Shown piece after piece: positions 1,203-41,534 of a stretch of DNA of 64,000 nucleotides. The translations under genes were made by a program, and so were the position numbers. The DNA is taken from positions 4,154,001 through 4,218,000 of the forward strand of contig NZ_CP034444.1 in NCBI RefSeq assembly GCF_003952385.1, given 5' to 3'. The first letter of the stretch is position 1. Each line of letters opens with the position of its first letter. A model generated the notes under the pieces. It ran no database searches. It had not been told where the DNA came from and saw only the letters and a program-made list of their open reading frames with translations. Origin of the DNA: Mesorhizobium sp. M1D.F.Ca.ET.043.01.1.1 (GTDB lineage Bacteria; Pseudomonadota; Alphaproteobacteria; Rhizobiales; Rhizobiaceae).

Positions 1203-1408
1203 CTTTGCGGAGGAGCGGTCACGCAACTGTCGGCGGCGCCGGGCCTCAGGGTGAATGGAGAGGATGGTGTCGCGTGAAGGCGCAACACGCGTGCTGACCG
1301 ACCTGCATAGTAGGAAGTCGTTCATTGCTCCCAAATCGTATGTGAGGAACATTCCTGTCCCGGCTGCACCGCGCGATGCTAGGTCGCGTTGTTCAGCGGG
1401 CCAAGCCG

Positions 1409-5249: not shown

Positions 5250-5521
5250 TGGCCGCCGGGGAGCAGCATATCGAGGGCTTCGCAGTACCGGTCCACCGGG
5301 CGCTGACCGAGCCGATCCTGCTCGGCGGGGCTCCGCGCGCGGTGGCGATCCTCAACGGTACAGTGGCCGCGGCCATTGGCTTCGGCTTGCAGCAATGGAT
5401 TGCTGGTCTGGTGCTTTGGATCGCAGGCCACTCGTTAGCGGTGTTTGCCGCAAGACGCGATCCGGACTTCGCCAGCGTGCTTGTGCGCCACCTACGTCTG
5501 AAGGGGTGGCTTGCATGCTGA
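5249..5521 (+). CDS. trbD: TrbD, T4SS inner-membrane protein (VirB3-like)
   Basis: 90 residues starting MAAGEQHIEGF, with one long hydrophobic hairpin region at about residues 30-62 and a charged C-terminus. The start was placed at the ATG that overlaps the trbC stop. The 3' end overlaps trbE by 7 bp. VirB3/TrbD proteins sit beside the VirB4-type ATPase and this position fits. Confidence 0.88.
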   Translation: MAAGEQHIEGFAVPVHRALTEPILLGGAPRAVAILNGTVAAAIGFGLQQWIAGLVLWIAGHSLAVFAARRDPDFASVLVRHLRLKGWLAC

Positions 5522-10043: not shown

Positions 10044-10775
10044 ATGCTCTTCAAGCGACCCGTGCACCGTTACGGCAAAACACCCGAACCGGTCACGCCG
10101 TATCAAAAAGCCGCCCAACTGTGGGACGAGCGCATCGGCTCATCTCGACTGCAGGCCAGGAACTGGCGGATCATGGCCCTTGGCTGCCTGGCCTTGGCGA
10201 CCGGGCTTTCCGGCGGACTCGTATGGCAGTCGATGCAAAGCCGTGTCGTGCCTTATGTCGTCGAGGTCGATGGCTTCGGCGAGACGCGCGCCGTCGCGCC
10301 GGCGGTCCGGAATTATGAGCCCTCGGATGCTCAGATCGCCTGGCATCTCGGCCGCTTCATCCAGAATGTCCGTTCCGTTTCCACCGATCCGGTTTTGGTT
10401 CGGCAGAACTGGTTGGCAGCGTACGACTTTGCTAGCGATCGCGCAGCGCTCTTCCTCAACGAATACGCCAAGGCGAACGACCCCTTCGGTCAGATCGGAA
10501 CGCGCAGTGTTTCGGTACAGGTCACCAGCGTGGTCAGAGCCTCCGAAAGTTCATTCCAGGTCAAATGGACCGAGCAGGTGTTTGAGCGCGGAAGCCTTGC
10601 CAGCACGATGCGCTGGACTGCGATCCTCACGATCGTGATCCGCTCGCCAAGCAATACGGATCAGCTGCGCAAGAATCCGCTCGGCGTCTTCATCAATGCC
10701 ATTGACTGGTCACGCGAGCTCGACAGCGCCGTCCCAGCCCCCCTTTCTCCGACGGAGTCCACCAATGAAAGGTAA
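10044..10775 (+). CDS. trbF: TrbF, T4SS bitopic membrane protein (VirB8-like)
   Basis: 243 residues: a cytoplasmic N-terminus, one membrane segment at about residues 36-57 (RIMALGCLALATGLSGGLVW), then a periplasmic NTF2-like domain typical of VirB8. The ATG follows the trbL stop immediately. The 3' end overlaps trbG by 11 bp. Confidence 0.93.
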   Translation: MLFKRPVHRYGKTPEPVTPYQKAAQLWDERIGSSRLQARNWRIMALGCLALATGLSGGLVWQSMQSRVVPYVVEVDGFGETRAVAPAVRNYEPSDAQIAWHLGRFIQNVRSVSTDPVLVRQNWLAAYDFASDRAALFLNEYAKANDPFGQIGTRSVSVQVTSVVRASESSFQVKWTEQVFERGSLASTMRWTAILTIVIRSPSNTDQLRKNPLGVFINAIDWSRELDSAVPAPLSPTESTNER

Positions 10776-11802
10776 AATGTCACCGATTCGTGCCGTGCTG
10801 ATCCTATCGGTGTCGGCAGCGGTCGTTTCCGCTTGTGCATCGAAGAAGGTGCCGCCGCCTGAGATTTCCTATGACGCTGCCGACTTCAAACCGGCCGCGA
10901 TCGAAAAAGCGCCGGAGAGGCCGATTAGAATTGTCGAGGTGCCAAAACCACTGCCGCTGCCTGGCCAAATGCAGCCCGAGCCCGGCAAGGCCGAGGACAA
11001 GCGCCCTCCTGAAGAACGCGTCGCTGATGCCAACAAAGCCGCGACCCAGCAACCCACCAAGTACGGGTATGTTAATGCAGTGCAAGTCTACCCCTTCACC
11101 GATGGCGCGCTTTATCAACTCTATGCCGCGCCGGAGCGCGTGACCGACATCGCTCTGCAGCCGGGCGAGAAACTAACCGCCGTGTCGGCTGGCGACACCG
11201 TGCGCTGGGTCATTGGCGATACCGCAAGCGGCACCGGTGACAATCAGCGCACCCATGTTCTGGTAAAACCCTTCGCGCCGGGTCTTGCCACCAATGTCGT
11301 CATTACGACGGACCGGCGGACCTATCATTTGCAGCTTCAAAGCACCGAGAAGACCGCAATGGCGGCAATCTCCTGGACCTACAGCCAAGACCAGATCATC
11401 GCGCTTCGCCAGCGCAATGCTCAAGCCGAGGCAGTTACACCGGTCGCGTCGAACATCGCGCTCGAAAACCTTCGCTTTCGCTACTCAATCAGTGGCGACA
11501 CACCGCCCTGGAGACCGACGCGAGCCTTCGACGACGGCAGCAAGGTCTATATTGAGTTCCCTCGTCGCATAGATCAGGGCGAGGCGCCACCACTCTTCAT
11601 CGTCGGCGCAGATGGGAGCAGCGAGCTCGTCAACTATCGCGTGCGCGGCAACTATTACATCGTCGATCGGCTCTTCGCCGCGGCCGAACTTCGCCTCGGC
11701 ACCAAGCGGCAGCAGGTGATCCGCATCAGCAGGATTGACGGCAGGCAACCGCAACGGCGGATCTCGCTCTTTCGCGGCAGCCGGCGAGGTGAGGGCTCAT
11801 GA
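10765..11802 (+). CDS. trbG: TrbG, outer-membrane-complex protein (VirB9-like), lipoprotein form
   Basis: 345 residues from the ATG at 10765. The N-terminal signal ends in a lipobox-like VSAC (cysteine near residue 22), so the protein may be lipidated; a Pro-rich linker follows. The later body has the VirB9/CagX beta-domain pattern (YPFTDGALYQLYAAP, IYIEFP-like strands). It would form the outer ring of the secretion channel with TrbI. It overlaps trbI by 4 bp (ATGA). Confidence 0.93.
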   Translation: MKGKMSPIRAVLILSVSAAVVSACASKKVPPPEISYDAADFKPAAIEKAPERPIRIVEVPKPLPLPGQMQPEPGKAEDKRPPEERVADANKAATQQPTKYGYVNAVQVYPFTDGALYQLYAAPERVTDIALQPGEKLTAVSAGDTVRWVIGDTASGTGDNQRTHVLVKPFAPGLATNVVITTDRRTYHLQLQSTEKTAMAAISWTYSQDQIIALRQRNAQAEAVTPVASNIALENLRFRYSISGDTPPWRPTRAFDDGSKVYIEFPRRIDQGEAPPLFIVGADGSSELVNYRVRGNYYIVDRLFAAAELRLGTKRQQVIRISRIDGRQPQRRISLFRGSRRGEGS

Positions 11803-13013
11803 TCGAAAATTCCCGCTCTGGCATCCCGCCGAAACTGGATCCCGAGGAACTGCAGCTTCGGGCCTCTCCCCGCCGCGTGGTGCGGTTCAGGCGCGGTGTG
11901 ATCATCGCTATCGCAGCGCTCGGATCCGGCGCTGTCTTCGGCGTTACCATGATCGCCCTCCAGGGGCCGGCCCTTCGCATCAGGGATCAGGCGGAAGATC
12001 TCTACAACACTGAGCGCAAACCAACCGCCGAGGGACTCGATACGCTTCCCCATGACTATTCCGGCATGAAGCCAAAGCCTCCCGTCCTTGGGCTACCTTT
12101 GCCGGGCGACCTCGGCCGCCCCATCCTCGAGCGGCAGCGCCAGCTCGGCATCGTGCCGGGCCAAGACATCTCGGCCGAGGAGCAGCGTCTAGCGCAGCAG
12201 GCGATCGAAGCGCGTGAATCGCGGGTGCTTTTCCGCGTCGAAAATCGAGCTCAACAGACAGATGTCGGAGAGAGCGTGCAAACTGCTCAGCATCCATTTG
12301 AGGCGCTTCCCCAATCCGAAGCAGGACGCGCGTCAGCCTCGGTGGCGGCGGCGGAAGGCGACCAGAACAATCAGCAGCGAAAGCTTGATTTTCTCAGCCA
12401 GCGGAGCACTGGCGGGATCTACAATCCGCATGCGCTTCAGACGCCGATCTCGCCATATCAACTGATGGCTGGCAGCGTGATTGCCGCCAGCCTGATCACC
12501 GGCATCAATTCCGATTTGCCGGGCCTTGTCGTCGCGCAAGTCACCGAAAATGTGCACGACACGGTCACGGGCAACATATTGCTGATTCCGCAGGGCTCAC
12601 GTCTTATCGGCGTCTACGACAGCGTCGTCGCGTTCGGGCAAAAGCGAGCGCTGCTGGTCTGGCAGCGCATTCTGCTGCCCGACGGCTCGTCGGCCGAAAT
12701 CGACAATCTGCCCGCGAGCGACACCGCCGGCTACGCAGGGCTGGAAGACAAAGTCGATTTCCACACTTGGCAGATGATCAAGGGAGTGGCGCTTGCCACA
12801 TTGCTCGGTGTCGGCACAGAATTCAGCCTCGGCGAAAACGAGAGCGATCTGGTCAAGGCGATCCGGGAATCAGCCCAGCAGAACGCCAGTCGAGCCGGCC
12901 AGCGCATCACCGAAAAAAACCTCAATATCCAGCCCACCATCGTCGTCCGCCCAGGTTGGCCACTGCGCGTCATCGTGCACAAGGACATCGTGCTGCGGCC
13001 ATACGCCAGTTGA
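11799..13013 (+). CDS. trbI: TrbI, T4SS channel protein (VirB10-like)
   Basis: 404 residues: cytoplasmic N-terminus, one membrane helix at about residues 30-52 (RRGVIIAIAALGSGAVFGVT), a Pro-rich periplasmic stretch (KPKPPVLGLPLPGDLGRP), and a C-terminal VirB10 beta-barrel domain with LIPQGSRLIGVYDS. It spans both membranes and closes the core trb operon. Confidence 0.95.
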   Translation: MIENSRSGIPPKLDPEELQLRASPRRVVRFRRGVIIAIAALGSGAVFGVTMIALQGPALRIRDQAEDLYNTERKPTAEGLDTLPHDYSGMKPKPPVLGLPLPGDLGRPILERQRQLGIVPGQDISAEEQRLAQQAIEARESRVLFRVENRAQQTDVGESVQTAQHPFEALPQSEAGRASASVAAAEGDQNNQQRKLDFLSQRSTGGIYNPHALQTPISPYQLMAGSVIAASLITGINSDLPGLVVAQVTENVHDTVTGNILLIPQGSRLIGVYDSVVAFGQKRALLVWQRILLPDGSSAEIDNLPASDTAGYAGLEDKVDFHTWQMIKGVALATLLGVGTEFSLGENESDLVKAIRESAQQNASRAGQRITEKNLNIQPTIVVRPGWPLRVIVHKDIVLRPYAS

Positions 13014-15005: not shown

Positions 15006-15749
15006 ATGACCTTTCGGCAAGACATTCATAGTTCCGGCATTCCTGTTCTTTGCTTCCCTTGCGAGGCACGGCGTCGCGGTGTCTGCGGTGCGCTCGATCC
15101 AGACAATTTGGTTGGGCTCGCCAAGACTTGCTCGCGTCGCCGGATCGAGTCAGGAATGGAGTTGACCGGCGAGGCACAGAACGTCGACAGCTACTCCAAC
15201 GTGCTTTCAGGCGTTGTAAAGCTATCAAAGAGCCTGTCGGATGGGCGCCAGCAGATCGTCGGTCTCCAGTTTGCACCGGATTTTCTGGGACGTCCTTTCA
15301 AGGTGGAAAGCTCGATCAATGCGGAAGCGGCAACAGCAGTCACGCTGTGTTCGTTTCCGCGAGCGGCCGTCGAACGGATGATGAAGGCGTCACGGGAATT
15401 CGAGCATCGCCTGCTCAAACAGACGCTGAATGAACTCGATGAGGCGCGCGAGTGGATGGTGACGCTGGGGCGCAAGACAGCTCCGGAAAAGGTAGCGACT
15501 TTTCTCCTCATGATGGCCCGGAATATCGATTCCAGTCTCGATGCGGCTTCCGGGTCGGCGTCCTTCGATCTGCCGCTGACGCGTGTCGAAATGTCTGATT
15601 TCCTTGGAATCACCAACGAGACCGTGAGCCGCCAACTGACGCGATTGCGGGCTGACGGGGTGATTCGGATTGAGAACGCACGCCATGTGACGGTGGACAG
15701 CATAAGCCGTCTGGAGAAGCGCTGTGGCGGCGGACGCGAGCGGCCCTAA
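15006..15749 (+). CDS. fnrN: FnrN-type oxygen-sensing transcription regulator (CRP/FNR family)
   Basis: 247 residues. The N-terminus carries C16-x2-C19-x7-C27 and a fourth cysteine is at C115 (TLCSF), the pattern used by FNR/FnrN to bind an oxygen-labile 4Fe-4S cluster. A cNMP-binding-like fold and a long dimerisation helix follow; the HTH recognition motif is TNETVSRQLTRL, with the E..SR residues that read TGAT half sites. It should activate hemN, fixNOQP and itself under low oxygen. Oxygen-blind FixK lacks these cysteines, so FnrN is the better name. Confidence 0.92.
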   Translation: MTFRQDIHSSGIPVLCFPCEARRRGVCGALDPDNLVGLAKTCSRRRIESGMELTGEAQNVDSYSNVLSGVVKLSKSLSDGRQQIVGLQFAPDFLGRPFKVESSINAEAATAVTLCSFPRAAVERMMKASREFEHRLLKQTLNELDEAREWMVTLGRKTAPEKVATFLLMMARNIDSSLDAASGSASFDLPLTRVEMSDFLGITNETVSRQLTRLRADGVIRIENARHVTVDSISRLEKRCGGGRERP

Positions 15750-16245: not shown

Positions 16246-17865
16246 ATGAAATTCGGCACAGAGATCGTCCTTCTAAGCGTGTTCGCTTTTGCGGCCCTGG
16301 TGGCCGCCGGCTTCGGCGTGGATGAACCTTTCCGCCGACACATGTGGGTGTTGTTCTTCGCAGTGGCTGGTTTCACTGCGATCCTGTTGCGCAACACGGA
16401 GTTCAAGCCAGCAGCTCCGATTGACCCATCCGCTTACATGGATGGTCCGATCCGCTACGGCGCGATCGCCACCGTGTTCTGGGGTGTCGTCGGCATGCTG
16501 GTCGGCGTGGTGATCGCGCTGCAGCTCGCCTACCCCGATCTCAACATCCAGCCCTGGTTCAATTTCGGTCGTTTGCGGCCGTTGCACACATCCGGTGTCG
16601 TCTTCGCCTTCGGCGGCAACGCGCTGCTTTGCACGTCTCTGTATGTCGTGCAGCGCACCTGCCGCGCCCGCCTCTTCGGCCGTGATCTGGCCTGGTTCGT
16701 CTTCTGGGGCTACCAGCTGTTCATCGTCATGGCCGCGACCGGCTACCTGCTCGGCATCACCGAGGGCCGCGAGTACGCCGAACCCGAATGGTATGTGGAT
16801 GTCTGGCTGACCATCGTCTGGGTCGCCTACCTCATTCTGTTCCTTGGCACGATCCTGAAGCGCAAGGAACCGCATATCTACGTGGCCAACTGGTTCTACC
16901 TGTCGTTCATCGTCACCATCGCGATGCTGCATGTGGTCAACAACCTGTCCATACCAGTCTCGTTCCTGGGCTCCAAGAGCTACTCCGCCTTTTCAGGGGT
17001 CCAGGACGCCTTGACGCAATGGTGGTACGGCCACAACGCGGTCGGCTTCTTTCTCACCGCCGGCTTCCTCGGCATGATGTATTATTTCGTGCCCAAGCAG
17101 GCGAACCGGCCAGTCTATTCGTACCGGCTGTCGATCGTCCATTTCTGGGCGATCATCTTTCTCTACATCTGGGCCGGGCCGCATCACCTGCACTACACCG
17201 CCTTGCCCGATTGGGCGCAGACGCTCGGCATGGTGTTCTCGATCATGCTGTGGATGCCGTCCTGGGGCGGCATGATCAACGGCCTGATGACGCTGTCCGG
17301 CGCCTGGGACAAGCTGCGCACCGATCCGATCATACGCATGATGGTGATGGCCGTCGCCTTCTATGGCATGTCGACCTTCGAAGGCCCCATCATGGCGATC
17401 CGGGCGGTCAATTCGCTGTCGCATTATACCGACTGGACGATCGGCCACGTCCATTCGGGCGCGCTCGGCTGGGTTGGCATGATCTCGTTCGGCGCAATCT
17501 ACTACATGGTGCCGAAGCTCTGGAACCGGCAACGGCTCTACTCGTTGCGGCTGGTCACCTGGCATTTCTGGCTGGCGACACTTGGTATCGTTGTCTACGC
17601 CGCGGTGATGTGGGTATCCGGCGTCATGCAGGGCCTGATGTGGCGCGAATACGACGAGCAGGGCTTCCTGGTCTACTCCTTCGCCGAGACCGTCGCCGCC
17701 ATGCACCCCTACTATGTCATGCGCGCCATCGGTGGGGCCATGTACCTCTCCGGCGCGCTGATCATGGCCTGGAACATCACCAGGACCATCCTCGGCCACC
17801 AGCGCGAGGAGGAGCCGATGCCGAGCCCCGTCGCCATCCGACCTGCGCGATCAGGAGCCAGGTAA
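16246..17865 (+). CDS. fixN: cbb3-type cytochrome c oxidase subunit I
   Basis: Catalytic haem b/haem b3-CuB subunit of the high-affinity oxidase used for respiration in nodules. 539 residues with about 12-14 membrane segments. Conserved histidine-bearing stretches are visible, including [45 protein letters not shown] and [11 protein letters not shown]. The length is normal. The stop overlaps the fixO ATG by 1 bp. Expected to be induced by FnrN/FixK through the box upstream. Confidence 0.97.
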
Positions 17866-18596
17866 TGGGCTTGATGGACAAACACGCAATCATCGAGAAG
17901 AACGCCACGCTTCTTCTCGTTGGCTCGCTGCTCGTGGTGACGGTCGGCGGCATCGTCGAGATCGCGCCTCTCTTCTATCTCGACAATACGATCGAGAAGG
18001 TGGAAGGCATGCGCCCCTATTCGCCGCTCGAACTTGTCGGGCGCAACATCTATATGCGCGAGGGCTGCTACCTCTGTCATAGCCAGATGATCAGGCCGTT
18101 CCGCGACGAAGTTGAGCGCTATGGCCACTACAGCCTAGCTGCCGAGTCCATGTACGATCACCCCTTCCAGTGGGGATCGAAGCGCACCGGGCCGGATCTC
18201 GCCAGAGTTGGCGACCGCTACTCGAATGCATGGCATGTCGCGCATCTTACCGACCCGCGCTCGGTGGTGCCGGAATCGATCATGCCGAGCTATGGGTTCC
18301 TGAAAGACACGCCGATCGACGTGAAGGATTTCTCAACGCATCTGGTCGCCAACAGGCTTGTAGCCGTCCCTTACACCGATGACATGATCGTCCACGCCAA
18401 TGCGGATCTGGCGGCGCAGGCCGATCCCAATGCCGACACATCAGGCCTTGAGGCGCGTTACCCAAAAGCCAAGATCGGCGACTTCGACGGCAACCCGCAA
18501 CAGGTCACCGAAATGGATGCCCTGCTCGCCTACCTGCAGATGCTTGGCACACTGGTCGACTTCAAAAATTACGACGAAGCCGCCGGCTACCGCTGA
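17865..18596 (+). CDS. fixO: cbb3 oxidase subunit II, monohaem cytochrome c
   Basis: 243 residues from the ATG overlapping the fixN stop ([13 protein letters not shown]). One N-terminal membrane anchor (about residues 15-34) precedes a periplasmic cytochrome c domain with the haem motif CYLCH at residues 68-72. The downstream axial methionine is probably in ESIMPSYGF. It passes electrons to FixN. An 11 bp gap leads to fixQ. Confidence 0.97.
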
Positions 18597-18607
18597 GGAG
18601 AACGCTG

Positions 18608-18757
18608 ATGACCTACAATTTGATGCGGGCGTTTGCCGACAGCTGGGGCCTGGTTGCGATGGCGCTGTTCTTCGTGGGGTGCATCGCCTTTGCCCTACGC
18701 CCCGGCAGCCGAAGGCTGGCCGACGAAGCGGCCCGCATTCCGCTCGAGGACGAGTGA
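18608..18757 (+). CDS. fixQ: cbb3 oxidase subunit IV (FixQ)
   Basis: 49 residues, MTYNLMRAFADSW at the start: one membrane helix (LVAMALFFVGCIAFAL) followed by a short charged tail ending LEDE. Size, topology and position between fixO and fixP identify it. It helps assemble or stabilise FixP in the oxidase complex. It ends 2 bp before fixP. Confidence 0.93.
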   Translation: MTYNLMRAFADSWGLVAMALFFVGCIAFALRPGSRRLADEAARIPLEDE

Positions 18758-18759
18758 TC

Positions 18760-19623
18760 ATGAGCGACGAGCATATCGATGAAATCTCTGGCGTCTCGAC
18801 CACCGGCCACGAATGGGATGGCATCCGGGAGCTGAACAACCCGCTTCCCAGATGGTGGGTTATCACCTTTTACGTCACCATTGTCTGGGCGATAGGCTAC
18901 ACCATCGCCTATCCAGCATGGCCTCTGTTGCACTCGGCGACGAAGGGTGTGCTCGGCTATTCCAGCCGCAACGAGGTCAGGAACGAGCTGACTGCGGCTG
19001 AGGCCGCCAAGGGCAAATATATCTCGGCGGTGGAGTCCAAGAGCGTCTCGGAGATCTCCGCGGACGACGGCCTGCGCGAATTCGCAATCGCCGCCGGTGG
19101 CGCCGCTTTCAAGGTCAATTGCGTACAATGTCACGGCTCCGGCGCCCAAGGTTCCAAGGGCTTTCCCAATCTCAACGACGACGACTGGCTATGGGGCGGC
19201 AAGGCCGAGCAGATCCAGCAGACGATTACGCACGGCATCCGCTTCGCATCCGATCCGGACACGCGCCTGTCGGAAATGCCGGCCTTCGGCGACATCATTA
19301 CCGCCGACCAGATCGCACAAGTCAGCGCCTACGTGGCCAGCCTTTCCGGCAAGGTCCGCGATGCAAGTCTGATCCAACCCGGCGCCAAGGTCTTTGCCGA
19401 GAACTGCGTCGCCTGTCACGGCGACAATGCAAAAGGCAACAGGGAATTCGGCGCCCCCGACCTGACCGATGCGATCTGGCTCTATGGATCCGGTGAGACA
19501 GCCATCGCCGCACAGGTCCGTGCGCCAAAACAGGGCGTCATGCCGGCCTGGGTTGGCCGTCTCGGCGAGATCAAGGTCAAGGAACTTGCAGTTTATGTCC
19601 ATTCGCTTGGCGGCGGAGAATAG
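18760..19623 (+). CDS. fixP: cbb3 oxidase subunit III, dihaem cytochrome c
   Basis: 287 residues from the ATG at 18760 (MSDEHIDEISG). One membrane helix at about residues 33-52 is followed by two cytochrome c domains with CVQCH at 121-125 and CVACH at 216-220. It takes electrons from the cytochrome bc1 side and hands them to FixO/FixN. Last gene of fixNOQP; a strong hairpin follows. Confidence 0.97.
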   Translation: MSDEHIDEISGVSTTGHEWDGIRELNNPLPRWWVITFYVTIVWAIGYTIAYPAWPLLHSATKGVLGYSSRNEVRNELTAAEAAKGKYISAVESKSVSEISADDGLREFAIAAGGAAFKVNCVQCHGSGAQGSKGFPNLNDDDWLWGGKAEQIQQTITHGIRFASDPDTRLSEMPAFGDIITADQIAQVSAYVASLSGKVRDASLIQPGAKVFAENCVACHGDNAKGNREFGAPDLTDAIWLYGSGETAIAAQVRAPKQGVMPAWVGRLGEIKVKELAVYVHSLGGGE

Positions 19624-19688: not shown

Positions 19689-19789
19689 GACACCATCCCT
19701 AATGCGATCTGCACAACCCGGCAAGGCTATCCTACCGCGAGGCTTTACGACAGGTGCCCCTGACATTGGCTGGGAAAGTGGAGTTGCAC

Positions 19790-21349
19790 ATGCGTGATAA
19801 GACGCAGTTGACACGGCTCGAAACAGAAACTGTCAATTCCGCCAAAACCCGCAAGCCGCTTTATGCCGCGCGTCAAAAGATCTTTCCGAAGCGCGCCTCG
19901 GGCAACTTTCGTCGCTTCAAATGGCTGGTGATGACGATCACACTTGGCATCTACTACCTGGCTGCGTGGCTGCCTTGGGCTCGCGGTCCATTTGCCCCGG
20001 ACCAGGCAGTCCTGCTCGATCTCGCGAACCGGCGCTTCTACTTCTTCTTCATCGAGATATGGCCCCAGGAATTCTTCTATGTGGCCGGCCTCCTGGTCAT
20101 GGCGGGCGTCGGTCTTTTCCTGATCACCTCGACTGTCGGCCGTGCCTGGTGCGGCTATGCATGCCCTCAGACGGTGTGGGTCGATCTGTTCCTCGTCGTC
20201 GAACGTGCGATCGAGGGGGACCGCAACGCCCGCATGAAACTTGACGCAGGTCCCTGGACCGCGCGCAAGCTCATGCTGCGTGTGTCCAAGCACACCATCT
20301 GGCTGGTCATAGGGGCGGCGACTGGCGGCGCCTGGATCTTCTACTTTGCCGATGCACCGACGCTGCTCGGCGAGCTCTTCACCGGCACTGCGGCGCCCGT
20401 CGCCTACATCACTGTCGCCGTCCTGACGGCTACCACCTACACGTTCGGCGGTCTGATGCGCGAACAGGTCTGCACCTATATGTGCCCGTGGCCCCGCATC
20501 CAGGCGGCCATGCTCGATGAAAATTCCCTCACTGTCACCTACAATGACTGGCGCGGCGAACCGCGTTCGCGCCACGCCAAGAAGGTGCTGGCCGCAGGCC
20601 AGCCCGTGGGCGACTGCGTCGACTGCAATGCCTGTGTCGCGGTCTGCCCGATGGGGATAGACATTCGCGACGGCCAGCAGCTCGAATGCATCACTTGCGC
20701 GCTCTGCATCGACGCCTGTGACGGCGTCATGGACAAGCTCGGCAAGGAGCGTGGGCTGATCGCCTATGCGACGCTCTCCGACTACAACGCCAACATGATG
20801 CTGGCGACTGCAGGCGGGTCCAGCTCAGTCAATCCATCGCTGATCAGGACCGCTGATGGCCTGTTCTCCGACAAGGTGGCGCATTTTCACATCCGCAAGA
20901 TCTTTCGGCCGCGCACCTACGTCTACATGGGCTTGTGGTCGCTGATCGGCCTCGGCCTGCTCTATTCGCTGCTGACGCGCGATCGGCTCGAACTGAACGT
21001 ATTGCATGATCGCAATCCCCAGTTCGTCACGCTGACCGACGGATCCATCCGCAATGGCTATACCGTCAAGCTGCTCAACATGATCCCCGAGCCGAGGACG
21101 ATCGTCGTAACCATGCAGGGCCTTGAAGGCGCTGACATGGTCGTCGTCGGCGACGACATCCCCGCAGGCCGTTCCTTCGCCATTCCGGTCGAACCCGACC
21201 GCCTGAAAATGCTGAGGGTCTTCGTTCGCCAGCCGGCGGACCAGATCCGCGCTCCGGCACAGACCTTCAAGTTCCGCGTCGAGGACAGAGCCAGCTTTGA
21301 GTCGAACGAGTACACCGCCACCTTCAACGCGCCGGAGCCCCTCAGATGA
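19790..21349 (+). CDS. fixG: FixG, ferredoxin-type cbb3 assembly protein (CcoG-like)
   Basis: 519 residues from the ATG at 19790, which has GTGGAG just upstream; an in-frame ATG-type start at 19754 lacks this. Five or so membrane segments and two ferredoxin-type clusters are visible: CVDCNACVAVCPMGIDI and CITCALCIDACDGVM, plus a CGYACPQTVW site. Members of this family act in copper reduction and cbb3 oxidase maturation. Overlaps fixH by 4 bp. Confidence 0.95.
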   Translation: MRDKTQLTRLETETVNSAKTRKPLYAARQKIFPKRASGNFRRFKWLVMTITLGIYYLAAWLPWARGPFAPDQAVLLDLANRRFYFFFIEIWPQEFFYVAGLLVMAGVGLFLITSTVGRAWCGYACPQTVWVDLFLVVERAIEGDRNARMKLDAGPWTARKLMLRVSKHTIWLVIGAATGGAWIFYFADAPTLLGELFTGTAAPVAYITVAVLTATTYTFGGLMREQVCTYMCPWPRIQAAMLDENSLTVTYNDWRGEPRSRHAKKVLAAGQPVGDCVDCNACVAVCPMGIDIRDGQQLECITCALCIDACDGVMDKLGKERGLIAYATLSDYNANMMLATAGGSSSVNPSLIRTADGLFSDKVAHFHIRKIFRPRTYVYMGLWSLIGLGLLYSLLTRDRLELNVLHDRNPQFVTLTDGSIRNGYTVKLLNMIPEPRTIVVTMQGLEGADMVVVGDDIPAGRSFAIPVEPDRLKMLRVFVRQPADQIRAPAQTFKFRVEDRASFESNEYTATFNAPEPLR

Positions 21350-21843
21350 CTGCCAATGTACAAAAGCCTCGTGAATTCACCGGCAGGCACATGCTGGTCA
21401 TCATCCTGGCCTTTTTCGGCGTGGTCATCGCAGTCAATCTGACCATGGCAACGCTCGCCAGCACAAGCTGGACTGGCCTCGTCGTCGAAAACACCTATGT
21501 GGCGAGCCAGCAATTCAACAAGAAGGCCGAGGAAGGACGGGCGCAGGCAGCACTTGGCTGGACCGGCAAGCTGACCATCGCATGGGGCGAAGTTCGCTAT
21601 GGCCTCGCCGACGTCGCCGGCAAGCCGGTTCCCTTGCACGGCGTCAAGGTGCTGTTTCGCCATCCCGCGTACGAGAAGGAGGACAAGTCGGTCACCCTCG
21701 CACCCGCCTCGGGCCAGGAATTCGCAGCCCAGCACATGCCGAAGGACGGCGTCTGGATTGTCGAAGTCGACGCCGACGCCGGTCTGGACAAACCGTATCG
21801 CGACGTCCGCCGGATCATGATTTCCAATGGAGCGCTGCAATGA
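21346..21843 (+). CDS. fixH: FixH, membrane protein for cbb3 oxidase assembly
   Basis: 165 residues with one N-terminal membrane helix (about 13-35, HMLVIILAFFGVVIAVNLTM) and a periplasmic domain. Members of the family help assemble the cbb3 oxidase. It overlaps fixG and fixI by 4 bp each (ATGA), so translation is probably coupled across the set. Confidence 0.94.
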   Translation: MTANVQKPREFTGRHMLVIILAFFGVVIAVNLTMATLASTSWTGLVVENTYVASQQFNKKAEEGRAQAALGWTGKLTIAWGEVRYGLADVAGKPVPLHGVKVLFRHPAYEKEDKSVTLAPASGQEFAAQHMPKDGVWIVEVDADAGLDKPYRDVRRIMISNGALQ

Positions 21844-24113
21844 GTTGTTGTGCACCGGGCGCCGAAATGGCGCTTGATCTGGTCAACACCGGATCGGTCC
21901 TGCCGTCCAGCCAGGAGATCAGGCTGGCGAGCCGATCGCTTGGCGATGATCTTCACCAGACCGATCTTTCAGTACCGACGGTTCATTGCGCAGGCTGCAT
22001 CCAGACGATCGAGACGGCGCTGGGAAAGCTCGATCGCGTCGAGAGCGCCCGCGTCAACCTGTCGACGAAACGGGTCTCTGTCCGGTGGCGTGGTGACGAG
22101 GTCCCACCGTTCGTCGTCGCGCTTGGGCGGCTAGGCTACCAGGCGCATCTCTTCCCTTCCGAGGTCGGCGACAAGGACAGGACGTTATCGGATTTGATCC
22201 GCGCGGTCGCGGTTGCCGGCTTTGCGGCGGGCAACATCATGCTGCTTTCGGTCTCGGTCTGGTCCGGCGCCGAAGGTGCTACCCGCGACCTGTTTCACTG
22301 GGTCTCGGCGCTGATCGCCATTCCTGCCCTCGCCTTCGCCGGCGGCATCTTCTTCCGTTCGGCCTGGAATGCTTTGCGCCATGGCCGCATGAATATGGAC
22401 GTGCCGATCGCGGTCGGTGTTTCGCTCGCCTACGCCATGAGCCTCTACGAGACGATCAACCATGGCGATCACGCCTATTTTGACGCGTCGGTATCGCTGC
22501 TGTTCTTCCTGTTGATCGGCCGCACGTTGGATCACGTGATGCGCGAACGTGCCCGGACCGCTGTGAAAGGCCTGTCCCAGTTGGCCGCACATGGCGCCAT
22601 GGTGCTGCGCAGCGACGGCGCGCGCGACTATTTGCCGGTCGGCGAGATCGAACCAGGCATGCGGTTGTTGATCGCAGCCGGTGAGAGGATCCCCGTCGAC
22701 GGCAAGATCATCCAGGGAACGTCGGATCTCGACTGCTCGCTGGCCTCAGGCGAAAGCACGCCGAAAAACGTGGCGCCGGGCGAAGCAGTTCAGGCCGGCG
22801 TGCTCAATCTTACCGGCCCGCTGACGATTGAGGCGACAGCCGCCGCGAAGGATTCGTTTCTGGCGGAAATGGTTCGTCTTATGGAAGCCGCAGAGGGCGG
22901 CCGCGCGCATTATCGCCGGATCGCCGATCGCGTTTCAGCGCTCTATGCCCCGGTGGTTCATCTCACAGCCTTCGCGACGTTCCTTGGCTGGATGGCGGTG
23001 ACCGGCGACTGGCACCGGGCGATAACCATCGCCATTGCCGTTCTGATCATCACCTGCCCGTGCGCGCTCGGCCTCGCCGTACCGATCGTTCAGGTGGTCG
23101 CCGCGCGGCGCCTGTTTGAGAACGGCATCATGGTAAAGGACGGTTCTGCCATGGAGCGCCTGGCGACGATTGATACAGCGGTGTTCGACAAGACCGGAAC
23201 GCTCACGCTCGGCCAGCCCCGGCTGGTCAATGCATCGTCGATCGATCCGGCCATGCTGGCAGTCGCGGGAGACATGGCTACGCATTCCCGCCATCCTTTT
23301 TCAAAGGCCATAGCCGGTTTTGCCCATCCCGGCGGGCAGTACAAATTTGATGCCGTCACCGAGCATCCAGGGTTTGGAATCGAAGCCACTGGAGCCGGAA
23401 GCACCTGGCGGCTAGGCCGACGCGGATGGGCTGGATGGAGAGCCCGGACCGGTGGTGAAGGCAAACATGGCGGAACCGTGCTGACAAAAGACGGGTTCAT
23501 TGTCGCGACCTTCGATTTTGAGGACGCGCTGCGCGCAGACGCCAAGGCGGCGATCGGGCAATTGAGCCATGCCGGGGTGTCAGTGGAAATGCTGTCGGGC
23601 GATACTGCGGGTGCCTGCGGTGAAGTCGCAGAAATGCTGGGTGTCAAGGACTTCGTTCCGTGCCTGCTGCCATCCGGCAAGGTCGAGCGCATCGAGACCC
23701 TGGCGAAAGACGGACACAAGGTTCTGATGGTTGGCGACGGCCTCAACGACACGCCGGCGCTCAGGGCGGCGCATGTCTCGATCGCTCCAGCTACCGCCGC
23801 CGACATTGGCCGCAATGCCGCCGACTTCGTATTCCTGCGCGAAAGCCTTCTGGCAGTGCCTCTCGCGCTGGACGTCTCGCGCAAGGCGGGACACCTGATC
23901 CGCCAGAACATCGCGATTGCGATCGTCTACAATGCGGTGGCAGTACCAATCGCCATCCTCGGGCACGCCACGCCTTTGTTAGCGGCGATTGCCATGTCTG
24001 CCTCATCGGTGCTTGTTATTGGAAACGCATTGCGCTTGCACGGCTTCGGGGCGAATGCGACGCTGCAAGTTATTCAAAAAGTCGGACGCTCCGCAGTCAG
24101 CTATTCGGCATAA
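21840..24113 (+). CDS. fixI: FixI, copper-transporting P-type ATPase for cbb3 oxidase
   Basis: 757 residues. The N-terminal heavy-metal-binding domain has C50-AG-C53 (VHCAGCIQTIE) and an extra CC at residues 3-4. The ion motif CPC is at residues 406-408 (ITCPCALGLAVP), the phosphorylated Asp at 450 in DKTGTLT, and the hinge in VGDGLNDTPAL. It exports copper needed for the CuB site of FixN. The ATG overlaps fixH by 4 bp. The upstream open frame in fixH is not part of it. Confidence 0.97.
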   Translation: MSCCAPGAEMALDLVNTGSVLPSSQEIRLASRSLGDDLHQTDLSVPTVHCAGCIQTIETALGKLDRVESARVNLSTKRVSVRWRGDEVPPFVVALGRLGYQAHLFPSEVGDKDRTLSDLIRAVAVAGFAAGNIMLLSVSVWSGAEGATRDLFHWVSALIAIPALAFAGGIFFRSAWNALRHGRMNMDVPIAVGVSLAYAMSLYETINHGDHAYFDASVSLLFFLLIGRTLDHVMRERARTAVKGLSQLAAHGAMVLRSDGARDYLPVGEIEPGMRLLIAAGERIPVDGKIIQGTSDLDCSLASGESTPKNVAPGEAVQAGVLNLTGPLTIEATAAAKDSFLAEMVRLMEAAEGGRAHYRRIADRVSALYAPVVHLTAFATFLGWMAVTGDWHRAITIAIAVLIITCPCALGLAVPIVQVVAARRLFENGIMVKDGSAMERLATIDTAVFDKTGTLTLGQPRLVNASSIDPAMLAVAGDMATHSRHPFSKAIAGFAHPGGQYKFDAVTEHPGFGIEATGAGSTWRLGRRGWAGWRARTGGEGKHGGTVLTKDGFIVATFDFEDALRADAKAAIGQLSHAGVSVEMLSGDTAGACGEVAEMLGVKDFVPCLLPSGKVERIETLAKDGHKVLMVGDGLNDTPALRAAHVSIAPATAADIGRNAADFVFLRESLLAVPLALDVSRKAGHLIRQNIAIAIVYNAVAVPIAILGHATPLLAAIAMSASSVLVIGNALRLHGFGANATLQVIQKVGRSAVSYSA

Positions 24114-29911: not shown

Positions 29912-30247
29912 ATGCCACATGCTGGCCGTTTGCCTAGTTCGGAAGCCCTCGAGAGGCGTTGCTCGTCTTGGTATGGCGTCGCCCCTTTTTCCGATCCATC
30001 GGCCACGGAGCTAGAATGCTGTCTAGCTGTTGCCGCCTACTTGGTCATCCGGCATGGAGATGCCTATATACCGACCTTCGAAAGGCTGGAATACGAGGTC
30101 GAACAAATGCGGCGGAAGCTCGGAAATCGCGAGCGAGCGCAGCGCGTGCTGGCCACGCTCAACCTAAATGGCTCGGACAGCTGGAGCCGTGAGGTTGGTT
30201 CTCAAGGCCTGGATGGCGCCGCAATCACATTCGCCCGGGCGGGGTAA
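29912..30247 (+). CDS. Small unknown protein next to the integrase
   Basis: 111 residues from the ATG at 29912 (MPHAGRLPSSEAL). The middle reads ELECCLAVAAYLVIRHGDAY then IPTFERLEYEVEQMRRK, an amphipathic helical pattern that I associate with small uncharacterised rhizobial proteins. It converges on the integrase gene and overlaps its 3' end by 23 bp. No DNA-binding motif is clear, so a role as excision factor is only a possibility from position. Confidence 0.5.
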   Translation: MPHAGRLPSSEALERRCSSWYGVAPFSDPSATELECCLAVAAYLVIRHGDAYIPTFERLEYEVEQMRRKLGNRERAQRVLATLNLNGSDSWSREVGSQGLDGAAITFARAG

Positions 30248-31547
30248 AAGCGATTTTTTGAAGCCACTCGCGCTTTTGCGCTAACGAAGGTCCCGCGCCG
30301 TATTTGGGCCGGATCCATTTGTGGCCCATCAGAGAAGCAATTACCTTCTCCGGCGCCTCAACTGCCGTCAGCCGGTCCTCGAAAGTGTGTCGCAGGCTAT
30401 AAAGACTATGCTCGGAAGTCGGCAGAAGTTCCTTGCTGGCGAGCACCTTGTTGACGAGCGCTGAAAGTGACGCGGCCTTGTCGCGATAACGAGGAAAGCC
30501 GTCCGGATGGAGCTTGATGGCTGCAAGTGCGCCGCCAACCAAGGGAATGTCACGGGCTGAATGACCGGTCTTCAAGCGACGGCCATTGGGGCGCACCCGC
30601 ACATGCGGGATTTCTTGATCGAGGTGGATTGTTTCGGTGGTGAGGTTTGCCGCTTCAGAAAGCCTGAGTCCGGTATCGGCAATCACATAGATTAGATGGC
30701 GGGCTTCGTCATTGAGTCCGTCGAGCGCGCCTTCAGCGAGTATCTTCTCCTGAATGAACTCCGCTGTGAACGCAGCGCGTTGCCCGGGGACGGCGCCGGA
30801 AAGACGCAGGTTTCGAAAAACCGGCTCCAGCTTGAGCTGGTGAGTCAGATCGACGACGCGCAGCATTTTCGAAACATGGCCGATGTCCTTGTTGGCCGTA
30901 CCGATATCAAGTCCATCCTCAACGATCCGCTTTTGCCACCACTCGCGGAACGCGATTGCGTCGTCCCGAGTGAGGCTTGCGATCTCCTTGTCGCCAATGA
31001 CTCCAACCAGATTGGCAACTGCGCGCTTTTTGGGGTTACGCCATTTCTTGATTTGGTTAGGCGACATGGTCAGCAAGTTCTGTTGCTCGATCGTCTCGAA
31101 TTCCTTGATAAGACCGCTCAGGCGGACCGCTGGCCGCTTCTCCCCACCCATGACGGCCGAGACGTCCTGCGCGTCCTCGATCGATTTTTTGTCGAGGAGC
31201 AGCTTGATACGGGCCATGAGTTCGTCGAGCGGCCCCGCTGCTAGTTCCTCGTTAGAGCGATAGGCCAATCCAAATGACCGCGCGCGCTTCCTCGCGGCTT
31301 CGAAACGCAGCCCCGCCTCGGCGGATTGGCCTTCCCGCAGTCTACGCCAATACGCCTCCAGCCCCGCGCCGAGGCTTTGCACTGCATCTCGCGCCCGTAC
31401 ACCGCGGGGATCGTCAGCCACGGCGACGCCCGTGGAAATGCGTACTAGGCAGCGGCGATCAAACGCCGCGAATTCCTTCGGCACCCTGCGGACGAGATAC
31501 CAGATGCCTTCACGTTTATGCGGCTTTGGCGCTGCGGAACGTCGCAT
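30225..31547 (-). CDS. Tyrosine site-specific integrase of the island
   Basis: 440 residues that would insert and excise the element at the neighbouring tRNA gene. The N-terminal part has arm-binding and core-binding regions. The catalytic domain shows the first Arg in DTGLRLSEAANL, the second in YSLRHTFEDRL (Tyr replaces the usual His before LRH), a GH box in LMGHKW, and the nucleophile Tyr in RPKYGAGPSL. It begins 115 bp from the tRNA 3' end and reads away from it, the normal layout for a tRNA-targeting integrase. Length is normal and no lesion is seen. Confidence 0.93.
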   Translation of the reverse strand: MRRSAAPKPHKREGIWYLVRRVPKEFAAFDRRCLVRISTGVAVADDPRGVRARDAVQSLGAGLEAYWRRLREGQSAEAGLRFEAARKRARSFGLAYRSNEELAAGPLDELMARIKLLLDKKSIEDAQDVSAVMGGEKRPAVRLSGLIKEFETIEQQNLLTMSPNQIKKWRNPKKRAVANLVGVIGDKEIASLTRDDAIAFREWWQKRIVEDGLDIGTANKDIGHVSKMLRVVDLTHQLKLEPVFRNLRLSGAVPGQRAAFTAEFIQEKILAEGALDGLNDEARHLIYVIADTGLRLSEAANLTTETIHLDQEIPHVRVRPNGRRLKTGHSARDIPLVGGALAAIKLHPDGFPRYRDKAASLSALVNKVLASKELLPTSEHSLYSLRHTFEDRLTAVEAPEKVIASLMGHKWIRPKYGAGPSLAQKREWLQKIAFTPPGRM

Positions 31548-31661
31548 TATCTTTCTCTAATGTTACACAGTTTGTTACACAGTCTAAGATAAGTTTCGCT
31601 TCGCGCTGGTCAAGCGCAACAAGGAAGCTTTTGAAAGGAAACGATTATTATGGAAGCTAAA

Positions 31662-31690
31662 TGGCGGAGAGGGAGGGATTCGAACCCCCG
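31662..31690 (-). other. Predicted integration site (att) in the tRNA-Ser 3' end
   Basis: Tyrosine integrases of this type usually cross over in the T-arm and acceptor segment of their target tRNA. The integrase gene lies just past this 3' end, so the attachment core is probably inside this span. The exact core cannot be set without the other end of the element. Confidence 0.6.
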
Positions 31691-31751
31691 ATACCCTTGC
31701 GAGTATGCCGCATTTCGAGTGCGGTGCATTCGACCACTCTGCCACCTCTCC
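31662..31751 (-). tRNA. tRNA-Ser (anticodon CGA)
   Basis: On the minus strand a 90-nt gene folds as a class II tRNA: acceptor GGAGAGG pairs with CCTCTCC, the anticodon stem CCGCA/TGCGG holds the loop CTCGAAA (anticodon CGA, reading UCG), there is a long variable arm, and the T loop is in GGTTCGAATCC. The terminal CCA is encoded. The gene is intact although the island end abuts its 3' side, so the incoming element restores the 3' end. Confidence 0.97.
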
Positions 31752-34914: not shown

Positions 34915-35952
<1,038 letters not shown>

Positions 35953-35957
35953 AATCC

Positions 35958-37097
35958 ATGAAATCGCTGACAAAATACCGGCGCATCACCGTCAAGATCG
36001 GCTCGGCGCTGCTCGTCGACCGTGCGACGGGGTTGAAGCGCGACTGGTTGGCCTCTTTGGCCGACGACATCGCGATGCTGGCCCATGCCGGCGCGGAAGT
36101 GCTGGTCGTCTCGTCGGGCGCGATCGCGCTCGGCCGCACCATCCTGGGTCTTGGCAAGCGTGCGCTGAAGCTCGAGGAGAGCCAGGCCGCGGCTGCTGTC
36201 GGCCAGATCGCGCTCGCCGGCGCCTGGTCGGACGCGCTCGGCAAGGACGGGCTGAAATCCGGCCAGATCCTGCTCACGCTTGGCGATACCGAGGAACGCC
36301 GCCGCTATCTCAATGCGCGGGCCACCATCTCGACCTTGCTCAAGATGAAAGCGGTGCCGGTCATCAATGAGAACGACACGGTGGCCACTTCCGAAATCCG
36401 CTATGGCGACAATGACCGCCTGGCCGCGCGCGTCGCCACCATGATGGGCGCCGATCTTCTGGTGCTGCTCTCCGACATCGATGGCCTTTACACGGCCCCG
36501 CCGGCGAAGGATCCGAAAGCGAAATTCATCCCGGTGGTCGACCGCATCACGCCCGACATCGAGGCGATGGCGGGTGCGGCTGCGTCCGAATTGTCGCGCG
36601 GCGGCATGCGCACGAAGCTCGATGCCGGCAAGATCGCCAACGCCGCCGGCACCGCCATGATCATCACCGCCGGCACCAGGCTTTCGCCGCTGATGGCGAT
36701 CGAGCGCGGCGAACGCGCGACTTTCTTCCGTCCGAGCGCCAACCCGGTGAAGGGTTACAAGACCTGGATCGCCGGCCAGCTCGAGCCAGCCGGCCGTCTC
36801 ACCGTCGATGCTGGCGCCGTCGGCGCGCTGAAGTCGGGCAAGTCGCTGCTGCCTGCGGGTGTGAAGCTGGTCAGCGGCAATTTTTCCCGCGGCGACACGG
36901 TGGCGATCCTGTCGCCCGAGGGCCGCGAGATCGCGCGCGGGCTGGTTGCCTATGATGCCGCCGATGCCGTAAGGATCGCGGGTCTGAAGACGGCCGAGAT
37001 CGAAACTGTGCTCGGCTACGAGGCGCGCTCGGCGATGATCCATCGCGACGACCTTGTGGTAAGCGTCGCCGGCGACCACGTATTGGCCGACGACTAG
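35958..37097 (+). CDS. proB: Glutamate 5-kinase
   Basis: First step of proline synthesis: ATP-dependent phosphorylation of glutamate. 379 residues: an amino-acid kinase domain ([45 protein letters not shown]) and a C-terminal PUA domain from about residue 285. The stop codon falls at the first bases of a dispersed palindromic element. proA follows. Confidence 0.97.
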
Positions 37098-37143
37098 AGC
37101 AATTCCAGGAAAAGTGTGACGCGGTTTTCCGTCCGGAATTGCG
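37095..37143. repeat. Dispersed rhizobial intergenic palindrome, copy 1
   Basis: The element starts TAGAGCAATTCCAGGAAAAG and ends TTCCGTCCGGAATTGCG, with GCAATTCC/GGAATTGC as inverted outer arms. It overlaps the proB stop codon (TAG at 37095-37097). A related copy lies at 59653-59727 in the opposite orientation. The family is common in Mesorhizobium intergenic DNA as far as I recall. Confidence 0.8.
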
Positions 37144-37173
37144 AAAAAACGAAGAGAGAGCGGAGGATGAACC

Positions 37174-38460
37174 ATGCTGAAGCAGCATGAAAAATCCGGG
37201 GAAGACACGGTGGCGCTGATGGCCGATATCGGCCGCCGCGCCCGCGCCGCCGCCCGACCGTTGGCCATTGCCACCACCGCCGCCAAGAACGCCGCGCTTG
37301 TCGCCATGGCCGAAGCCATTCTTCGCAACGAGCAGGCGATCCTCGACGCCAACGCAATCGACGTCTCGAATGGCGACGAATCCGGCCTTTCCGGTTCCTT
37401 CATGGACCGGTTGAAACTGACACCGTCGCGCATCAAGGCAATGGCCGAGGGCACCCGCGAGATCGCAGCGCTCAAGGATCCCGTCGGCGACGTGATTGCC
37501 GAGTGGGACCGGCCGAACGGGCTGCATATCGAGCGCGTGCGCACGCCGCTCGGCGTCATCGGCGTCATCTATGAAAGCCGGCCGAACGTGACGGCCGATG
37601 CCGGCGCGCTCTGCCTGAAGGCGGGAAATCCGGTGATCCTGCGCGGCGGCTCGGATTCGCTCAATTCGTCGTCGGCTATCCATGCCTGCATGGTCGAAGG
37701 GCTGAAGGCCGCCGGCCTGCCCGAGGATGCCATCCAGCTGGTGCCGACCACCGACCGCGCCGCGGTCGGCGAGATGCTCAAAGGTCTCGACGGCAATCTC
37801 GATGTCATCATCCCGCGCGGCGGCAAAAGCCTGGTCGGGCGCGTGCAGAGCGAGGCGCGCGTGCCGGTGTTCGCCCACCTCGAAGGCATCTGCCATCTCT
37901 ATGTCGACCGCTCGGCCAAGCTCGACATGGCGGTGAGGATCGTCGTCAACGCCAAGATGCGGCGCACCGGCGTGTGCGGCGCGGCCGAGACGCTGCTGGT
38001 CGACCGCGCGGTTGCCTCCACGCATCTGGTGCCGATCCTCGAGGCGCTGCGCGCCGCCGGCTGCGAGATCCATGCCGACGCCGAGGTGATGAAAGCTTTC
38101 TCGGATGCCAGCGCGGCGACCGATGCCGACTGGGTGACGGAGTATCTCGACGCCATCATCGCGGTGAAGCTGGTCGACGGCGTCGCCGGCGCGATCGAGC
38201 ATATCGAGACCTTCTCGTCGCACCACACCGAGGCGATCGTTGCCGAGGAAGCGCGCGCGGTCGAAAAATTCTTCAACGAGATCGACTCGGCGATCCTGCT
38301 GCACAACGCCTCGACGCAGTTCGCCGATGGCGGCGAGTTCGGCATGGGCGCCGAGATCGGCATCGCCACCGGCAAGATGCATGCCCGCGGACCGGTCGGC
38401 GTCGAACAGCTGACCTCGTTCAAATACCGCGTGCGCGGGTCGGGGCAGGTGAGGCCTTGA
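37174..38460 (+). CDS. proA: Gamma-glutamyl phosphate reductase
   Basis: Second step of proline synthesis, NADPH-dependent reduction of glutamyl phosphate. 428 residues. Seen: the aldehyde-dehydrogenase-like fold with [35 protein letters not shown], and the catalytic cysteine in [28 protein letters not shown] ribosome binding site precedes the ATG. nadD follows 29 bp later. Confidence 0.97.
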
Positions 38461-40441: not shown

Positions 40442-41395
40442 CTATCCTGTGATTGCCGCCCATCGGCGCATGTTGAAAGCGATCGCGGCAAGTGTCACCT
40501 GGGCTGCGGCCTTGGCCAGTCCGACATAGCGGATTGTGGTCAGTTTCATGCGGTTCTTGAGCGTGGCGAAGGTCGTCTCCACCGCCGCCCGCCGTCGTGC
40601 GATCAGGCGATTGTAGCGCTTGAGCCGCTCGGGCAGCGAATGGTGCTTATTGGGGCGGCGGGCAATGCGCGGCTTCCTGCCCTCGGCCTTGAGCCGAGCA
40701 CGCCGGGCATGCGTGTCATAGGCGGCATCCGCCCACACCGTCTTCTCGTCGCCTCGGATCAAGTGATCGGCCACTACCGTGTCGTTGACGTTGGCCGGCG
40801 TGGTGATCACCGTGCGGATCAGACCAGAGCCCTCGTCGACCCCAACATGGGCCTTGTAGCCGAAGGTAAAGCCGCCCTTGCCCCGCCGCACGGGACGGGC
40901 ATCGGCATCCTTCGAGGGCCGCTCGGCTGTCGGCGGCGCCGAGACCGCATCGATCAGCGTCGCATCCAGCATCGTGCCGCGCTTCAGGATCACGCCGGCC
41001 TTCTCCACCTGCCGGTCCAGTTCGCCAAACAGCCTTTCCATCAGCCCTTCGCCGACAAGCAGGTTGCGGAAGCGCGACAGCACTGTGTGATCGGGAATGC
41101 TCTCCTCAAGGCCAAGCCCGACAAAGCGCCGGAACGACAGCCGGTCACCCAGCGCTTCCTCGAGTTCGCGATCCGATAGCCCATAGAGCGATTGCAGCAG
41201 CAGTGCTTTGAACAGAACCAGCGGAGGCCAAGCCGCACGTCCCGGGCCGCCATCGCGTAGCGGGTTGAGCAGCTTCTCGAAGCGATACCACTTCACCAGA
41301 CCGGACAGCCGATCGAGCGGCGAGGATCCACCAGCAAGCTTCTGGCCCAGAAATGCTTCCGCCAGGCTCAACTGACCCGTCCGCTTCACCGCCAT
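40442..41395 (-). CDS. IS5-family transposase
   Basis: 317 residues from MAVKRTGQLSLAEA at 41395; the ATG 15 codons upstream is too near the IS end. An N-terminal DUF772-type domain (FKALLLQSLYGLSDRELEEA) precedes the DDE catalytic core: Asp in TMLDATLIDA, Asp in VWADAAYDTH and Glu in RRAAVETTFATLK. No lesion is visible, so it may still be active. Confidence 0.93.
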   Translation of the reverse strand: MAVKRTGQLSLAEAFLGQKLAGGSSPLDRLSGLVKWYRFEKLLNPLRDGGPGRAAWPPLVLFKALLLQSLYGLSDRELEEALGDRLSFRRFVGLGLEESIPDHTVLSRFRNLLVGEGLMERLFGELDRQVEKAGVILKRGTMLDATLIDAVSAPPTAERPSKDADARPVRRGKGGFTFGYKAHVGVDEGSGLIRTVITTPANVNDTVVADHLIRGDEKTVWADAAYDTHARRARLKAEGRKPRIARRPNKHHSLPERLKRYNRLIARRRAAVETTFATLKNRMKLTTIRYVGLAKAAAQVTLAAIAFNMRRWAAITG

Positions 41396-41534
41396 CGCGA
41401 TTCCCTCCGAGTTCCAACTCAGAGAATCACAACCAGCCAATTATGCAACAGGCCCACAAGGGGAGAAGGAGAAGGCGCGCCATGTCGCTTTTACAGCGGC
41501 CTTTCATTCGCCGATCAGCCAAGCTGGAGCCAGC

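Follow-up and report, generated by a model that had tools for sequence, protein, structure and literature searches.

Does a tRNA-Ser(CGA) gene with an adjoining integrase gene in the chromosome of Mesorhizobium sp. M1D.F.Ca.ET.043.01.1.1 mark one end of a continuous mobile element, or one joint of an element that is split into several regions? The question is raised by a stretch of 64,000 nucleotides (hereafter the window; positions 4154001-4218000 of the single 7,127,907-bp contig, genome G000), for which an initial annotation had described an island end at the tRNA gene and suggested that it may belong to a tripartite integrative and conjugative element (ICE). We are highly confident that a symbiosis ICE of approximately 420 kb, continuous (monopartite) and of the ICEMcSym1192 type of chickpea mesorhizobia, ends in the window, with its integrase at this end. 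In the following, coordinates of up to five digits refer to the window and seven-digit coordinates to the contig.

The sole tRNA gene of the window detected by ARAGORN is tRNA-Ser(CGA) at 31662-31751 (minus strand), the target gene, which is still intact. Next to it, an intS-like tyrosine integrase of 440 amino acids is encoded (P0001; 30225-31547, minus strand). Its open reading frame (ORF) scores 36.4 bits for the Pfam family Phage_integrase (cut-off 27.1); it begins 115 bp from the 3' end of the tRNA gene and is read away from this gene, into the island. The observation in the initial annotation, an island end at an intact tRNA-Ser(CGA) gene with a dedicated integrase at this distance and in this direction, is thereby confirmed. 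This arrangement is not a chance one, because it recurs at a fixed spacing in the loci of other genomes. Relative to the integrase start, a tRNA-Ser gene was present at -204 to -115 in 23 of the 27 loci taken from other genomes and in 28 of 30 loci of a genus set, which includes the window's own locus and overlaps with the former set in genomes. The genus set consists of 30 loci retrieved in a survey of 146 genomes, of which 44 gave a match with an E value of 1e-60 or lower. The exceptions among the 27 loci were L058 (tRNA-Gln), L059 (tRNA-Asn), L060 (contig ends early, with a GGA-like end) and L062 (partial integrase match, tRNA not found), and those in the genus set were L212 (no tRNA found, contig ends early) and L215 (tRNA-Ser at -200 to -111). 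With respect to isoacceptors, 17 of the 27 loci were at tRNA-Ser(CGA) and 6 at tRNA-Ser(GGA), and the 30 genus loci comprised 22 at CGA, 6 at GGA, one cut by a contig end and one at TGA (62.5% identity). An integrase 98.6-100% identical to that of the window occurred in 24 of the 146 genus genomes, its own genome counted, with an internal stop in one of the 24. Plasmid relatives of the integrase were found in 7 records, every one below 60% identity.

The initial annotation had suggested looking for another copy of the tRNA-Ser 3' end, and this was indeed found. A tRNA-region search of the genome placed it near 3765804-3765833, and the exact shared core comprises 22 bp, at 3765812-3765833 and at 4185661-4185682 (31661-31682 in the window, plus strand, at the tRNA 3' end); the two copies have the same orientation and are separated by 419,849 bp. 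Based on a uniform-base estimate, about 8e-7 chance matches are expected in the genome for one given 22-mer. A 21-bp part of the core, with at most 3 mismatches allowed, occurred once in the window and once in a 20-kb stretch around the far copy, and in 0 of 100 and 0 of 200 shuffles. Like attachment (att) cores at both ends in the same orientation imply that one reaction by one integrase suffices, and with the same core bounding the 420-kb segment on either side, the proposal that the window is one joint of a split element does not hold. In addition, each core copy is accompanied on its island side by a pair of TGTTACACAGT-like repeats: two TGTTACACAGT repeats 12 bp apart at 31561-31583, and a similar pair inside the other end. 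By analogy with published relatives, these repeats are probable arm sites of the integrase. When 26 of the 27 loci were compared (L062 left out), the integrase-side pair was kept in all 24 loci with an integrase at least 78% identical to that of the window.

The segment between the two cores is considered a symbiosis ICE because a relaxase, an HTH_17 protein, an acyl-homoserine lactone (AHL) synthase, nodC and nifH were all located inside it. The relaxase ORF (583 amino acids) lies around 4138028, the AHL synthase at 4116316, nodC at 3818506 and nifH at 3871589. The HTH_17 protein (89 amino acids; 4135944-4136213) is encoded directly before a traF-like peptidase and a transglycosylase, and appears to resemble a recombination directionality factor (RDF), as judged by its domain and its place before the traF-like peptidase rather than against RdfS.

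Among relatives at tRNA-Ser(CGA), the island side of the 17 loci, compared up to 10 kb, was 97.0-100% identical to the window (coverage was only 23% in L040 and complete in the other 16), whereas the 3 kb beyond the tRNA gene were 83.2-94.7% identical; identity was measured separately on either side of the junction. The same island end is therefore present on clearly diverged chromosomes. Besides, two genomes assembled as one contig, G003 and G121, have the same core pair 396,732 and 410,452 bp apart, respectively.

The closest published system is ICEMcSym1192 of Mesorhizobium ciceri CC1192, a monopartite element of 418,907 bp that is flanked by the 20-bp Ser-tRNA repeat GAATCCCTCCCTCTCCGCCA and whose transfer has been demonstrated both in the field and under laboratory conditions (PMC8090884). 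The 22-bp core described here contains exactly this 20-bp GAATCCCTCCCTCTCCGCCA, and both elements have in common the monopartite structure, the Ser-tRNA site, a size of approximately 419 kb, nod, nif, fix, trb and relaxase genes, and an integrase that is distinct from those of earlier symbiosis ICEs (PMC8090884). The features of this class were found in the present segment: the tRNA-Ser 3' end, with the published core, as a direct repeat at the borders, a tRNA-adjoining integrase similar to the published ones, a trb cluster, a relaxase, an RDF-like gene, and nod and nif/fix genes inside (nodC, nifH and fix being those examined). Similarly, the symbiosis island reported in M. mediterraneum R31 measures 480 kb, is located at a serine tRNA and has repeats of 22 nt (PMC10586107). 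ICEMlSymR7A is likewise a monopartite symbiosis ICE and also uses the 3' end of a tRNA gene, but differs from the tRNA-Ser island in its Phe-tRNA target and 17-bp core (PMC5882170). The integrase of the window is identical at 438 of 440 residues to that of the ICEMcSym1192 recipients WSM4306, WSM4311 and WSM4313. Measured from core to core, the island is about 0.9 kb longer than ICEMcSym1192, whose published boundaries may be counted otherwise.

The tripartite alternative supposes that the window is one joint of an element divided among alpha, beta and gamma regions with the integrases IntS, IntG and IntM. In this model, the regions are bounded by unlike att sites and use a single transfer system in common. 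An integrase directly downstream of guaA (ORF 1892426-1893682) and three trb clusters in the chromosome, as seen from TrbL matches, speak in its favor. However, the guaA integrase belongs to a separate island at the guaA 3' end (approximately 1694611-1893992, about 199 kb), which has its own trb genes, including TrbL, and its own relaxase, and does not serve the tRNA-Ser element; the left end of this island was recognized, within the examined part 1686001-1706000, by a match of 86 bp (74% identity) that includes 23 bp with a single mismatch. A third island, at tRNA-His, occupies 1983612-2315722 (about 332 kb), with an 18-bp core, sought within the fetched stretches only, and similar inner sequences at both ends, and its integrase is 39% identical to the tRNA-Ser one. 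The tripartite reading is not supported, because the att sites at the two ends are alike in all three islands (22 bp for Ser, 18 bp for His and 22/23 bp for guaA) and every island has its own TrbL and its own relaxase, the three TrbL and three relaxase matches pairing with the three islands. The initial annotation had also suggested looking for other integrases at guaA or tRNA-Met; the former was found, on a separate island as described above, and no tRNA-Met or tRNA-Phe was detected in a local test with ARAGORN in 27 loci of 3.2-3.6 kb around Phage_integrase matches, nor in 9 loci of 20 kb. In contrast to the list of sites used by tripartite elements (PMC9973854), the tRNA-Ser island is bounded by tRNA-Ser at both ends. 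ICEMcSym1271 and other tripartite ICEs have related trb, relaxase and RDF functions and symbiosis cargo (PMC5882170, PMC9973854), and the three separated regions of the ICEMcSym1271 type are not a feature of the tRNA-Ser island. Nor does a tRNA-Ser target point to a tripartite ICE, as had been argued, since the monopartite ICESyms of Cicer are located at a tRNA-Ser gene (PMC8627217). Altogether, it is extremely improbable that the window represents a joint of a tripartite element, and the interpretation in the initial annotation is only partly supported.

The tRNA-His symbiosis region was also considered as a possible part of the tRNA-Ser element and was ruled out by its own att pair, integrase, TrbL and relaxase. 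The two islands share many aligned blocks, mostly 77-92% identical. The nodC match of the tRNA-His island is split in two pieces, with one TGA; at this break, 1,050 bp are identical to a stretch of the tRNA-Ser island. For nifH, the match in the tRNA-His island falls 11 residues short of its counterpart in the tRNA-Ser island, and the tRNA-His island contains neither of the two AHL synthase matches of the genome. This agrees with published data: strain M1D.F.Ca.ET.043.01.1.1, for which the accession NZ_CP034444.1 is given (PMC10820077), was reported to carry two ICESyms, ICEMcSymM1D-2 and ICEMsp.SymM1D-1, one of which is being pseudogenized (nodC is truncated and traI1 is missing), and the other double ICESym carrier is M2A.F.Ca.ET.046.03.2.1 (PMC8627217). 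The second symbiosis island here, with its split nodC and lack of an AHL synthase match, is like the published one (PMC8627217). The tRNA-Ser element is thus already known in kind and has probably already been published for this very strain.

Several other sequences shared by these two islands were observed. A 9.4-kb segment is 97.9% identical between the His and Ser islands (2091949-2101355 and 4122447-4131846), and both copies, together with two more places in the genome, carry integrase-family ORFs of 412 and 725 amino acids with equal scores, which are perhaps a mobile recombinase cluster. Approximately 4 kb near the tRNA-His end (2303735-2307708) are 93-95% identical to a stretch at the far end of the Ser island (3766232-3770034), exceeding the identity of most other shared blocks; it is possible that this likeness reflects an exchange between the two islands.

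A further alternative is that the tRNA-Ser island is itself decayed or immobile and has kept only its ends. Fragmentary or interrupted integrases are present inside it (L016/L017, L020 and L021), and the other symbiosis island of the genome is decayed. On the other hand, the integrase, relaxase, RDF-like gene, tested trb genes, nodC and nifH are all open reading frames, near-identical ends occur on diverged chromosomes, and transfer of ICEMcSym1192 has been demonstrated experimentally (PMC8090884). Decay to mere ends is unlikely, if somewhat less so than the tripartite structure.

Several points nevertheless weigh against the assignment to a monopartite ICE of this type. The Pfam score of the integrase is modest (36 bits), and the gene content of the 420-kb segment was checked for the named genes rather than by a whole annotation. 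When the island side (to 10 kb) is compared with that of the ICEMcSym1192 recipients WSM4306, WSM4311 and WSM4313 (L046, L045 and L043), used here in place of CC1192 itself, identity amounts to 97.0% rather than 100%. Empty sites were sought with the tRNA gene and its chromosomal flank in 61 genomes, 60 of which had a match; 30 loci were fetched, one being the window's own. Among the other 29, the left flank of G000 was directly beside the tRNA gene in 8 and the integrase was present in 6; relatives with a tRNA gene that this integrase does not follow thus exist, which favors the monopartite reading. Neither of the two was found at the tRNA gene in 15 (L151 being cut by a contig end). On the tRNA 3' side, compared in 16 of the 29 loci, the hairpin of the G000 far end was present in 9 and not in 7. 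The match was mostly this short hairpin (28-90 bp aligned, 73-100% identity), which could be a repeat, because similar sequence follows tRNA-Ser(GCT) in G000 (L030). A long stretch of the left flank was found only in L154 and L156 (approximately 380-420 bp, 83-84%), and is about 1 kb closer to the tRNA gene there than in G000.

If the element is a monopartite ICE, its movement may be pictured by analogy with published relatives, from which excision, transfer and regulation are deduced. The integrase would recombine the tRNA-like core of the circular form with the tRNA-Ser(CGA) 3' end, and this integration would restore the tRNA gene and leave the 22-bp copy at the far end. Excision would reverse the reaction, presumably aided by the RDF-like protein under the control of quorum sensing, and the circle could then be transferred by the relaxase and the trb system.

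The integrase lineage also raises the question of how strictly its target is defined. In L208 and L209, integrases 98.6-98.9% identical to that of the window are located at tRNA-Ser(GGA), whose 3' end differs from that of the CGA gene at two core positions. L050 and L051, possibly the same genomes as L208/L209, are also at GGA, with integrases showing 5 and 6 amino-acid differences. Taken together, near-identical integrases at GGA instead of CGA were observed in L208, L209, L216, L220, L223 and L228. When either core was searched for in 7 chosen genomes, G087 was found to have a second GGA-type core without a tRNA gene and with similar repeats beside it, as expected for a far end, and its CGA gene had no such integrase beside it. 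Only one GGA-type core copy was found in each of G135, G166, G168 and G110, which contig gaps or a changed core could explain, and a two-ended GGA element is hence seen in one of the five GGA-type genomes. Conversely, both ends were found in the CGA-type genomes G003 and G121, in which the GGA gene had no integrase beside it. Judging from these sequences, it is conceivable, though at somewhat less than even odds, that the integrase lineage has moved between serine isoacceptor tRNA genes with almost no change of the protein; that no second GGA-type core was found in four of the five GGA-type genomes counts against it. A literature search, with most subscription journals outside its scope, found no paper stating such a shift.

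The remaining genes of the window fit the division into an island side and a chromosome side. The trb and fix genes that the initial annotation had placed on the island were recovered, all on the plus strand. The transfer genes comprise traG for the type IV coupling protein (1376-3433; T4SS-DNA_transf, 352 bits), the ATPase gene trbB (3960-4928; T2SSE, 138.7 bits; named from cluster order), the pilin gene trbC (4941-5249; TrbC, 88 bits), trbE (5230-7965; CagE_TrbE_VirB, 45 bits, and P-loop_TraG, 45.6 bits; the ORF as listed, its real start being probably further in), trbL (8721-10043; TrbL, 170.8 bits), the VirB8-like trbF (10044-10775; VirB8, 214 bits), trbG (10696-11802; CagX, 238 bits) and trbI (11799-13013; TrbI, 203 bits). 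An ORF at 7803-8687 without a Pfam match is separated from trbL by a gap of 33 bp; elements of the ICEMcSym1192 type are characterized by the absence of trbK. The transfer genes are followed by a Crp/Fnr regulator (15006-15749; HTH_Crp_2, 60.7 bits), called fixK-like from its position only, and by fixN for cbb3 oxidase subunit I (16246-17865; COX1, 419 bits), fixP (18400-19623; FixP_N, 88 bits), fixG (19754-21349; FixG_C, 98.8 bits), fixH (21346-21843; FixH, 126.6 bits) and the P-type ATPase gene fixI (21582-24113; E1-E2_ATPase, 143 bits). The true start of fixI is probably further in, because the listed ORF overlaps fixH. On the other side of the tRNA gene, obg, proB and proA (34924-38460, plus strand; GTP1_OBG, 207.6 bits, AA_kinase and PUA, and Aldedh) are read as ordinary chromosome beyond the island. 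In addition, an ORF with a Ulp1-type protease domain (Peptidase_C48, 36 bits; 51-1202, plus strand) adjoins traG and may encode a secreted effector, and an IS5 family transposase (40442-41440, minus strand, 284 bits) is present on the chromosome side.

For the tRNA-Ser locus, the tripartite question can be regarded as closed, and the window is assigned to a mobile symbiosis ICE of a kind already known from chickpea bacteria, in a genome that shows an intact symbiosis island beside a decaying one. The isoacceptor difference bears on the stringency with which this integrase requires a matching core. If the lineage has indeed moved between serine tRNA genes, integration at a mismatched site, swapping the core, would be enough for a shift of target, with no new integrase needed, and two such elements could share a cell at two serine tRNA genes.
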